Part shown: one piece after another, positions 19,683-23,201 of the stretch | How the letters are laid out: each line of letters opens with the position of its first letter | Numbering within the stretch: the first letter of the stretch is position 1 | IMG/VR virus record: IMGVR_UViG_3300028835_001079 | Span: 1 to 42,138 of that record | Length of the DNA: 42,138 bases | Strand: one strand, 5' to 3' | Origin: a virus | Translations under genes and position numbers: made by a program | Notes under the pieces: model-generated | Told to the model about the DNA's origin: nothing | The model's input: the letters and a program-made list of their open reading frames with translations, nothing else | Databases searched by the model: none

Positions 19683-21101
19683 TTACAGCCTACTCGCAAG
19701 AGTAATGAACGGAGAGCGTGTGCTGCCTCTCTTCGGGGTGAAGGGCTTCGGCCACCAGGGCTGTCCGTCCAACCTGATGACATACCTGAAAGCGGTCTGG
19801 TCGTGCAGGAACATGAGATGAATCGACTTGGCAAATTGGATTCCCGCTCCCGCTCCTCTCTTCTGTCCGACGAGATACTCGCCGAAATCGATGAGGCTCA
19901 GGTCTCCCTCCGTTCCGAGTGCCGAGGCATGCTCGGTCCAGACGAGTTCCTTGCCCATGAGGGTCTCGTACGGGGCTCCGGAAAGTCCTCCAGCGGGCAT
20001 GTACACCACGCTTCCGCCGGTTCCGACTGCGATTGACATTTTGAACAGCTGGGGAAAGATGTCGTCATTCCCCACCCAGATGGCGTTCTTCTTCGACATG
20101 GAAAACATCCTGCCCCACATCTTGCCGATGTTCTCGGCTTTTATGGTGGCGGCTGCCTGTCCTGCCTCTTTGGCAACAGGGATCTTTGCGGTATTCCCGG
20201 CATTCAGAATCCCCAGAGGCTGGCCTGCGCCTGTCCCTCTGAGTATCGCCTCGTCGGTCTTCCAACCGAACACATCGACGGATTTCTTCATGAGTAGGGG
20301 TTCCATGGAGATGGGGCTGTCTTCCAACAGCTCATCGGAAGAATAGATCAGGATGCAGAGCTTGTTGAGGCTCATCGTCACCTTTCCGAATTTCGGCTTC
20401 GTTGCCGTCTTCTCATCCAGCTCGTCCTTCCAGTATGCCATCATGGCTCCGTGCAGGTACGTGGTGTGGGTAAAATCTTCCTGGAACGGCATGCTGACCG
20501 TGTTTCTCTGCATGGGGATCTTTGTGCATCTCTTCAGGAAATTCGAGTTCTCGAACCCTCTTGTCATAAGAGTGGCCGCAAACTCGGGAGGAATCAGCGC
20601 TCCGCCCTGCTCGGGATCTGCAATCTCAAGGCTCGGGTCTCCTGCCGTCCTCAATGCGGTCACATCCGCCATCCACTTCAGGTAGGTGGCGGTCGGCCCG
20701 GCTGCCTCTTTGTTCCCCGCGCGGTAGACATCGACGGCGAATTCCGAGACGCAGCTGTATCCGCCTGTCCTGCTCAGTCCTTTCCACTCCGAGTCGTCAC
20801 CCGTGATGTCCTTGAGTCCGTCCTTGCCGGGAAGGTTGGCCAGCTTCTTGAGTTCCTCTTCCAGGGTCTTCTGTCCTTCCTCAACTGTAGCTGCTATGGG
20901 TTTGAGTTCGTTATGGATCTCTTCCTTGAGCTGACCGAGCGGGACGAATTCCTTCTCCAGGACGATATTCTCCGCAATGCTCCTGACCAGCTTCTTCAGG
21001 TCTTCGAGAGTGAACTGTCGGTTGACTTGGGTGTCATCTTTTTCAAAACGAGCTTCGACGTCGCCGGCTTCTGGTTTCTTCTTTTCTTCTGGTTTTTCCA
21101 A
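19683..21101 (-). CDS. Major capsid protein, HK97 fold
   Basis: A 472-residue protein with a TTG start at 21101 behind GAGGAGAATTATA. The first 145 residues are charged and helical (LEDLKKLVRSIAENIVLEKEF, KTLEEELKKLANLPG), the delta domain that acts as scaffold and is removed by the head protease. The shell domain begins near the landmark GGALIPPEFAATLMTRG and runs through RCTKIPMQRNTVSMPF, SDELLEDSPISMEPLL, DEAILRGTGAGQPLGIL and DQTAFRYVIRLDGQPWWPKPF, all standard for HK97-type capsids. A TTG start is unexpected for the most abundant virion protein. Together with the 240-base structured leader it suggests translational control. Confidence 0.95.
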   Translation of the reverse strand: MEKPEEKKKPEAGDVEARFEKDDTQVNRQFTLEDLKKLVRSIAENIVLEKEFVPLGQLKEEIHNELKPIAATVEEGQKTLEEELKKLANLPGKDGLKDITGDDSEWKGLSRTGGYSCVSEFAVDVYRAGNKEAAGPTATYLKWMADVTALRTAGDPSLEIADPEQGGALIPPEFAATLMTRGFENSNFLKRCTKIPMQRNTVSMPFQEDFTHTTYLHGAMMAYWKDELDEKTATKPKFGKVTMSLNKLCILIYSSDELLEDSPISMEPLLMKKSVDVFGWKTDEAILRGTGAGQPLGILNAGNTAKIPVAKEAGQAAATIKAENIGKMWGRMFSMSKKNAIWVGNDDIFPQLFKMSIAVGTGGSVVYMPAGGLSGAPYETLMGKELVWTEHASALGTEGDLSLIDFGEYLVGQKRGAGAGIQFAKSIHLMFLHDQTAFRYVIRLDGQPWWPKPFTPKRGSTRSPFITLASRL

Positions 21102-21341
21102 TATAATTCTCCTCTATAGATTTCTCGCTTCTCGCCTTCCTCGCCAAGCACCTACTATTCGCTGCTTCCTCGGAGCTACTGACCTTCGCTCCTCCACAGC
21201 TACCCAGGCTTTACGCCTGACTTCACTGCTCGGCTCGTTTGACTCCAAGCCAAGATTTATGTAATTGAGTTACAGCCTTCGCTGTAAGTCAGCTACATGC
21301 TATTCTTAATAAATAGGGGATAGACCCCTTTTTTCACTTTT
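21102..21341 (-). ncRNA. Structured leader RNA of the major capsid gene (candidate)
   Basis: No ORF is supported in these 240 bases between the protease-scaffold stop and the capsid TTG. On the minus strand a row of hairpins can be drawn: AGGGG/CCCCT (21315-21329); GACTTACAGC/GCTGTAACTC with GAAG loop and one mismatch (21267-21290); CTTGGCT/AGCCGAG with a 12-base loop and a G-U pair (21229-21254); CAGGC/GCCTG with loop GTAAA (21205-21219); GGAGC/GCTCC (21172-21192); AAGCA/TGCTT (21146-21167). The G-U pair would be an A-C mismatch on the other strand, so the RNA is most likely in the sense of the capsid gene. Loops are purine-rich. It might control capsid translation, resist decay, or be an independent small RNA. 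Confidence 0.6.
21315..21334 (+). terminator. Terminator-like hairpin facing the plus direction
   Basis: On the plus strand AGGGG-ATAGA-CCCCT is followed by six T residues, the form of an intrinsic terminator, but no plus-strand gene precedes it. On the minus strand the same stem is followed by TATTTATT, so it could also end part of the transcripts coming from the protease gene. It may stop antisense transcription into that gene. Confidence 0.4.
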
Positions 21342-23201
21342 TCACTTAATCTCTCCCTGCGTCTTGTCCAAGACTTTCTTGAACAGCTTTCCGATATCCA
21401 GCTTATCCTTCATGTCTTCCTTCTTCTCGTCCTTCAATGTCAGTATCACTCCGTCTTCCTCTTTTTCCTCGAACTCTTTCTCCTTCCCGCTCAATTCCAT
21501 GACAACCTTGGATTCTTCTTCCGTTACCTCTTCTTCTGGCTCCTTCGGTTCGGTCGCTTCCAGCAACGCCTCAAGCTTTTCCGTGGCTTTCTTCGTGGCC
21601 GAAACCGCATCCTCGACTATCTGCCTGTTCTTGCCTGACAGGACTCGGCCTTCCTTGACCTCAATCAATTCCCTTAGTTCCTTCAGCTCGGATATGATTG
21701 CTTCCCAAAATTCGTATGTAATTTTCAAATTCTCCGCATCTCTAGAGTCCGGAGGCATCATTTTCTCCCACATCTCTTTCAAATCCTTGATCTCTATGCC
21801 TTCCATGCTCTTCCCCGCCGCTGGCTCGAATAGTATCCCCTTATGCTCCTTGCAGTGCTTCTTCGCTTCGCTCGCACTCCATGTGTCCTTCGCATACCTG
21901 AACGACTGCTCGGTCATTTTGGTCTTGCCCTTCAATCTTCCTGCTATGACTTGGTATGCCTTCCCGTTTCCCGCCGTCCTCGAATAGCTCTTGAAACTGC
22001 CCTTCTTGAATTTCTCCGGGTCGACTAGTCGGCAACTATGGGTATTGGGCAGGGGCTTCGTAACCTCGTCGTCAGTGATTTCCTTCCCTGCCTCGTACTC
22101 CTCTTTGAAAATAAAAGGCTCGATACCAAAGCTGCCTTCGGATGCCTTTTCTGCGCTGTCCCATTCCAATCCTTCCTCGTTAGGGTCATATTCAAATAGT
22201 TCTTCGCCTCTTATAATCCTAACCCAACCAAGCCCTTCAATTTTAGAATAGTGCCGGTCTTCTCCATCTTTCTCTGCCTTTCCAACCGTTGACATCTTTT
22301 CTACTTTTCTTCCCAGCTCATCTTCTGACACCTCGTACTTGAGACGATCCAGTTCTCCTAAATAGCCGGTTGCCTCTACGAATTCCTTTTTTGCTTTTGC
22401 CTCTGCCTTCTTCGTCTCTTCCTCTTTGCGTTCTTCTTCTTTCGGATCATCCTTGCTCAAACCTCCTAAATCGATAATGGTCTTGCCCCCCTCGATTTTC
22501 TCCAGCAGGCATTCCTCAAAACTCTTGCATTCCTCAACCATGTCATCGGGACCGCCGATTGATTTCACGGCCACGGTCAGTGCGTCAGGGTTCGCTCCCA
22601 CAGGCACTGCCGAGTATTCGAGCAGACGCCACTTCTGATGTACCCACTGCACCTCTTCCGGGTTCGGAAGCCACTCGTACAGCTTCTCGAGGTCTGCATC
22701 CTTTTTCGGTTTCTTCGGCTCCGGTTTCACTCCCTTGATGGGGATGAATCCCACACTCCACATCCGCAGGTGCTTGCCCTTGTACAGCCGATAGACTCGG
22801 GCGGCCTTCTCCTCGCTCAAGGCGAACTGGGTCAAAGCCATCAGCCCTGTGTCTGATGCCTCGATCTTCAGGTTTGTTCCCATCACATTCTCCGGCTCAC
22901 GGTAGTCGTGCGCCCAGAGCACCATCGGGTTCTTCTTGTAATATTTGAGCTGTGCCCCTTTTGGCAGCATCACCTCGCCATAGGTGTCGATGGATACGGT
23001 CGATATCCAGTGCTTCACCTGGCCTTCCTGGAGGCCTTCTATGACAACCTTCTCCTGGACTCCGTACCGCCTGTAGAACGGGATCTCCGCCTCTTTCCGA
23101 TACGGCATAGCCGGGTCTCCCAGGACATCCTTTACCAAGTCCTTTATGGAGAATGAGAAATCAATGTCTTTCAGCAGTAATTTGTCTGTGAATAGATTCA
23201 T
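21342..23201 (-). CDS. Prohead protease-scaffold fusion with inserted domain
   Basis: A 619-residue protein. The N-terminal 210 residues are an HK97-type (Herpes assemblin-like) head maturation protease: STVSIDTYGEVMLPKGA (67-83), WAHD with His98, RMWSVGFIP with Ser149, and EYSAVPVGANPDA (195-207). A Lys/Glu-rich linker (250-275) follows. Then comes a domain at about 383-460 with NTHSCRLVDPEKF, QVIAGRLKGKTKMTEQSFRY and SEAKKHCKEHKG, seen inside other phage proteases and portal-associated proteins. Residues 495-619 are acidic and coiled-coil, as in scaffolds. HK97 proteases usually have 200-250 residues, so the internal scaffold appears fused here, although the capsid protein also carries its own delta domain. 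Start: GGAGGCTTGAA, ATG 23201. Confidence 0.85.
   Translation of the reverse strand: MNLFTDKLLLKDIDFSFSIKDLVKDVLGDPAMPYRKEAEIPFYRRYGVQEKVVIEGLQEGQVKHWISTVSIDTYGEVMLPKGAQLKYYKKNPMVLWAHDYREPENVMGTNLKIEASDTGLMALTQFALSEEKAARVYRLYKGKHLRMWSVGFIPIKGVKPEPKKPKKDADLEKLYEWLPNPEEVQWVHQKWRLLEYSAVPVGANPDALTVAVKSIGGPDDMVEECKSFEECLLEKIEGGKTIIDLGGLSKDDPKEEERKEEETKKAEAKAKKEFVEATGYLGELDRLKYEVSEDELGRKVEKMSTVGKAEKDGEDRHYSKIEGLGWVRIIRGEELFEYDPNEEGLEWDSAEKASEGSFGIEPFIFKEEYEAGKEITDDEVTKPLPNTHSCRLVDPEKFKKGSFKSYSRTAGNGKAYQVIAGRLKGKTKMTEQSFRYAKDTWSASEAKKHCKEHKGILFEPAAGKSMEGIEIKDLKEMWEKMMPPDSRDAENLKITYEFWEAIISELKELRELIEVKEGRVLSGKNRQIVEDAVSATKKATEKLEALLEATEPKEPEEEVTEEESKVVMELSGKEKEFEEKEEDGVILTLKDEKKEDMKDKLDIGKLFKKVLDKTQGEIK

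Follow-up and report, generated by a model that had tools for sequence, protein, structure and literature searches.

The 240-nt gap in front of the major capsid gene in the window, by which we mean the whole 42,138-nucleotide stretch of viral DNA that was analysed, encodes, as judged from comparison of related sequences, a conserved folded RNA belonging to a family found before HK97-type capsid genes in many uncultivated phages. The gap (21341..21102, - strand) interrupts a packed late operon on the - strand of the window, which carries the terminase, portal, head morphogenesis protein, prohead protease and capsid genes. It had been singled out as the longest gene-free stretch, and indeed no longer stretch without an ORF of at least 60 aa exists on the coding strand of the window, the runner-up measuring 228 nt (622-849). 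Stop codons interrupt all three - strand frames of the gap. The TTG start that had been read for the capsid gene was also confirmed, and a Shine-Dalgarno (SD) sequence precedes it. At the edge of the window lies a nucleotide-sugar epimerase-like gene (850-1842, - strand; phrog_540, E 4e-85). The gap and its flanking genes, in the direction of transcription, contain the following features:

21342..23201, - strand: prohead protease S78 with a long C-terminal extension (PF04586, E 2e-7), upstream of the gap
21315..21329, - strand: terminator-like hairpin AGGGG-UCUAU-CCCCU directly following the protease gene; its + strand version is the better terminator (bidirectional)
21259..21298, - strand: long hairpin with a GAAG loop, AUGUAGCUGACUUACAGC-GAAG-GCUGUAACUCAAUUACAU, from the minimum-energy fold; window-specific as far as seen
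21247..21255, - strand: P1 5' strand UCUUGGCUU, pairing with 21123-21130; UCUCUGCUC/GGGCAGAGA in the relative L021
21227..21234, - strand: P2 5' strand GCCGAGCA, from the minimum-energy fold; one compensatory change in the inner part compared with L021
21201..21224, - strand: unit 1, a GAA ... GUA half-loop (L021 alignment) with an inserted hairpin CAGGC-GUAAA-GCCUG at 21205-21219
21196..21200, - strand: P3 5' strand GCUGU, pairing with 21161-21165; GCCGC/GCGGC in L021, one two-sided and one one-sided change
21172..21192, - strand: P4 hairpin GGAGC-[GAAGGUCAGUA]-GCUCC closing unit 2 (GAA × AGUA), kept with changes in L021
21161..21165, - strand: P3 3' strand GCAGC, pairing with 21196..21200 (L021 comparison)
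21153..21160, - strand: unit 3, a GAA-U-AGUA half-loop opposite unit 1 (L021 alignment and window fold)
21143..21150, - strand: P2 3' strand UGCUUGGC, from the minimum-energy fold
21123..21130, - strand: P1 3' strand AAGCGAGA (L021 comparison)
21109..21115, - strand: SD sequence AGAGGAG, mostly unpaired in the fold
19683..21101, - strand: HK97-fold major capsid gene with a TTG start (PF05065, E 7e-42), downstream of the gap

The gap folds with a minimum free energy of -77.4 kcal/mol, against -61.9 ± 4.1 in dinucleotide shuffles (z -3.8, reached by 0 of 200). The folding energy of the opposite strand is just as extreme relative to shuffles, and energy alone therefore does not give the strand of the RNA. 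The original prediction of a structured gap with GAAG and GUAAA hairpins was confirmed, with one correction: both hairpins exist, but neither is conserved. An insertion of 12 nt, absent from L021, the nearest relative of the window (capsid identity 64%), holds the GUAAA hairpin, and the GAAG hairpin has no counterpart in the L021 leader as read. The exact 18-mer of the latter gave 0 matches in viral contigs, indicating that it is not the conserved part of the leader.

What is conserved in the window leader is the rod at 21123-21255. In the alignment with L021 three GAA..AGUA units match those of the window while the spacers drift, and the two leaders share the P1-P4 rod, with 22 pairs that are 95.5% paired and show 4 two-sided and 5 one-sided changes; when the partners are slid, the same pairs are at most 65% paired. 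As only two sequences are compared, and both were consulted when the structure was drawn, we take the pair changes as support for the rod, short of proof. The rod is also the minimum-energy fold of the window leader, with -76.9 kcal/mol both constrained and unconstrained. Throughout the window clade (L021, L023, L027, L028, L002/L003 and L007) the loop is GAA opposite AGUA, and helix-flanked cases of this loop number 11, against 1.07 ± 1.1 in shuffles.

Capsid-based searches, four over 2.9 million viral contigs and one over cellular genomes, led to about 80 loci; nearly all of those with available upstream sequence have a pre-capsid gap, mostly of 85-370 nt. In most relatives of the window capsid, the preceding gene, usually that of the head protease, is separated from the capsid gene by a same-strand leader of 50-450 nt. 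A further scan with more distant capsids drew on the best 80 of 546 capsid relatives. Among the 60 second-scan relatives that were tried, 17 kept a usable leader-length gap and 42 had an upstream gap of <30 nt, so that the leader behaves as a present/absent trait that is dispensable for the capsid fold; the second-scan gap extraction also took in four loci found by DNA pattern. In total 67 distinct gaps were collected, 52 in the first set and 15 in the second. Short gaps are found in isolated phages whose capsids are related (Bradyrhizobium ppBdUSDA122-1, Streptomyces Dagobah, Caulobacter Kronos and gut phages of the NatCom/CHVD kind); the modules described below are absent from those of their gaps that were read, and no cultured model was found. 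At two loci (L078:429-2918 and L034:110-2683) the position of the head protease is taken by a long protein with an AAA ATPase domain (PF00004), which is an unusual neighbour of the capsid or an unusual fusion.

Across the wider group the leaders are built around a second loop. Counting words in the 52 distinct gaps revealed CTGGAGAT, GGAGATATTAG and TATCAGGC to be strongly enriched, in the sense orientation only, and structure sampling with ViennaRNA, to which no motif was supplied, showed that these words form the opposing sides of a 3x1 internal loop, 5'-GGA-3' × 5'-A-3'. In the sampled structures of the 52 leaders, GGA × A occurs 27.1 times (expected copies), against 0.17 in shuffles, an enrichment of about 160-fold. 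A helix-based search over the 256 possible 3x1 loops likewise found GGA/A to be the commonest, followed by AGA/A and GGG/A, with 55 descriptor matches for GGA/A against a median of 3 across all 256; in the gaps, GGA/A occurs 60 times in the sense and once in the antisense orientation. The second set of 15 leaders, which was selected by capsid similarity only, again had GGA × A as its top loop (6.05 against 0.042 shuffled).

The GGA × A loops occur in both orientations within one rod, typically 6 bp apart, so that two copies of 5'-GGAGAUAUYA-3' pair together. Rods differ greatly in size and copy number: that of L063 has five loops (GGA, GGG or AGA opposite A), and those of L078, L082 and L084 have three each. 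In the leader of L083 (about 2766-2882) all three GGA loops have changed together, to AUA, GUA and AUA opposite A, with the rod and its helices kept. The window leader itself has no GGA × A loop (score 0 in structure sampling, no match to the covariance model R1 of the module). It is placed in the family by the position of its leader, by the enrichment of GAA × AGUA, and by two leaders that hold both loop types in one rod, L007 (GUC-A-GGCGAU-[GAA...AGUA]-AUCGCU-GGA-GAU) and L049 (AGUA/GAA beside a GGA/A loop).

Pairing in these rods is maintained by compensatory change. The 24-pair structure of alignment A7, which holds the homologous leaders of L078, L082, L083 and L084, is 97.9% paired and includes 4 two-sided changes; when the partners are slid by 1-3 columns, pairing falls to 31-49%. 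Two-sided cells number 24 in module alignment A8 (12 hairpins) and 7.6 in shuffles, a comparison that is partly circular since the hairpins were chosen for pairing; this does not apply to the homologous alignments or the validation set. Within the module helices, G-U pairs number 26 and A-C pairs one, which indicates that the capsid-sense RNA is the selected molecule.

The best matches to the module lie in capsid leaders. R1 was trained on 12 hairpins from 11 loci and scanned over 3-14 kb around capsid genes. At loci outside the training set, all nine matches with E<1 fell in capsid leaders on the sense strand, leaders making up about 0.5% of the strand-bases searched, and four more matches with E above 1 lay outside leaders; in a second such search all ten matches with E<5 were in leaders, sense strand (about 1% of strand-bases). 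Two unrestricted DNA patterns run over the 2.9 million viral contigs matched 17 contigs, and in 11 of these (L095-L099, L101, L104, L105, L106, L109 and L110) the motif is non-coding and directly before a capsid gene, with PF05065 found in 6/6 of the downstream genes tested among pattern-matched contigs. The other six (L100, L102, L103, L107, L108 and L111) appear to match by chance, inside coding sequence or at a distance from any capsid gene. Across 22 whole contigs, GGAGATATYAG has 16 exact matches, every one of them in a tight cluster at the leader position. R1 run over 395 genomes of one bacterial phylum gave 3 marginal matches, not above chance.

In keeping with the original prediction, in which no described family was recognised, the RNA matches none in Rfam. 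The window gave 0 matches at gathering score to the 4227 families of Rfam 15, the best permissive match having an E of about 2, and 20 relative loci likewise gave 0 at gathering and nothing convincing in the leaders in a permissive search. A tRNA/tmRNA search found none in the window and none in L030, L055 and L129; in the gaps of these three loci, tRNA-like stretches are seen by eye just 5' of the leader, where ARAGORN calls none.

The SD region of the window lies outside the rod and is 0.65 unpaired, against 0.57 with a shuffled leader. Over 51 loci the leader has on average no effect on the predicted accessibility of the ribosome-binding site (p 0.43). A leader of the riboswitch or thermometer type, in which the SD or start codon is paired in the ground state, thus finds no match in the window and no trend over the 51 loci. 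The only clearly occluded loci are L002 and L003 (start region 0.09-0.13 unpaired, about 0.4 with a shuffled leader), where the leader begins with GGCCAUAGAGUAGCC, a complement of the SD/start sequence GGCUACUAUGGCC (L002:3075-3210, L003:3815-3955); from the predicted folds, these two leaders may possibly form a translational switch. As regards transcription, no sigma-70-like promoter was found in the leader stretch of the window, including after the terminator-like hairpin at the start of the gap, which is the single terminator-like site on the coding strand of this stretch; from the RNA to the capsid SD there is no other. By reading, L021, L007, L023 and L026 have a terminator-like hairpin at the same junction of protease gene and leader, and most distant members show none.

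In the reading to which we give about even credence, the RNA is a cis-acting 5' leader of the capsid cistron, whose repeated loop modules serve a trans-acting factor that sets the translation or lifetime of the capsid mRNA. A cis-acting RNA had been one of two forms originally predicted, and it is supported by the conserved position of the leader, the recurrent internal loops and the compensatory pair changes; the circumstances that might have spoken against it, a lack of conservation in relatives or a conserved ORF, were looked for and did not hold, and no conserved frame crosses the leader. Its predicted control of capsid output is plausible. Each internal loop would be a recognition module, the rod would present several copies of it, and the bound factor would then act on the message. 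The fixed loop letters, the several copies and the joint loop change in L083 argue for such a trans-acting reader, most likely a protein of phage or host, and the concerted change is as expected if one factor reads every copy. Because the ribosome-binding site is outside the rod, base-paired sequestration is not the expected mode of control, which would instead work via recruitment, stabilisation or the bound protein. One may speculate, although we hold this to be unlikely, that the repeated loops bind the capsid protein, by way of its N-terminal delta region, or else the head protease; the leader would then count free head protein and couple capsid synthesis to assembly, or nucleate proheads on the mRNA.

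The main rival is a leader that stabilises or processes the mRNA with no specific ligand, the rod blocking 5'-end-dependent decay or a host RNase cut yielding a stable monocistronic capsid mRNA. This would suit the most abundant product of the phage, rods that are stable with the ribosome-binding site outside, and the terminator-like hairpin ahead of the leader in the window clade, and it has a precedent in T4 gene 32 (PMC3014915). However, a plain roadblock needs no fixed loop letters, yet GGA × A exceeds shuffles about 160-fold and the loops of L083 change in concert, and we consider this explanation possible but somewhat doubtful. A rod released from the mRNA and acting elsewhere, for example in head assembly or packaging, would account for the strict tie to the capsid gene across very divergent phages, and multiple identical modules would fit a multimeric partner; rod size and copy number vary greatly, however, and the window has neither a promoter-like site nor a terminator between the RNA and the capsid start. 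This makes the separate small RNA that had been the other predicted form less likely, and we judge a trans-acting or structural RNA improbable. The hairpin at the start of the gap in the window clade could also point to a transcription element, either an RNA that modifies RNA polymerase (antitermination) or an attenuator for the capsid and downstream genes. Yet the rod lies downstream of that terminator, and hence is made too late to act on it, and most distant members lack a terminator by reading, which leaves this a highly improbable reading. Hardly credible, finally, is a DNA-level element for packaging or recombination, or a small protein-coding gene: the repeats are partly palindromic as DNA and the L013 gap is spanned by an open 43-aa frame, but the strand asymmetry and G-U use are strong, the window gap has stops in all three frames, and no common frame is seen between relatives. 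A small conserved ORF was also sought in the short similar peptides of L006 and L007, which are in different frames; these frames, too, break between relatives.

By analogy with phage translational operators, such as the coat protein operator hairpin of RNA phages and the autoregulatory leader of T4 gp32, which are likewise structured RNAs 5' of the gene for an abundant phage protein, a protein-bound cis element would be the simplest model for the leader. The capsid leader differs from these in having several internal loops in a rod, in belonging to tailed dsDNA phages, and in lying upstream of the SD with the start codon uncovered. CsrB/RsmZ similarly repeat a short purine-rich element with GGA in one RNA, whereas in the capsid leaders GGA lies in a 3x1 internal loop that faces one A; these leaders are in cis to one gene and have no Rfam match. 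A CsrA sponge of this type would have GGA in hairpin loops, which the leaders do not show, and the loops of the window rod have no GGA at all. The letters 5'-GAA-3' and 5'-AGUA-3' are those of the bulged-G (sarcin-ricin/loop E) internal-loop motif; the window half-loops match it by letters, a resemblance of sequence only, and are used in symmetric pairs in the phage leader. The phi29 prohead RNA (pRNA) is also a structured phage RNA tied to head function, but it is a separate transcript, and the capsid leaders have no Rfam match. RNase E processes the T4 gene 32 mRNA 71 nt before the start, and this mRNA is unusually stable (PMC3014915). Its 5' leader is comparable as a structure of a highly expressed phage gene; unlike it, the capsid leader has no pseudoknot, is not at the start site and carries repeated modules.

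Structured leaders are already known, but the GGA × A module appears to be new, as do its tandem use and its link to a single gene, and no description of such a capsid leader was found in open-licence papers. To our knowledge, little is known in tailed dsDNA phages of RNA-based control over major capsid output. R1 and alignment A8 together make up a searchable new RNA motif that is missing from Rfam. If the loops do bind a head protein, the logic of coat protein and operator would extend to tailed dsDNA phages, with the loop type (GGA × A, AUA × A or GAA × AGUA) as a changing specificity code. A leader family tied to one gene, with a countable candidate binding module, swaps of loop type and natural members without the leader, makes both the reader of the loops and a coupling of capsid supply to assembly testable.
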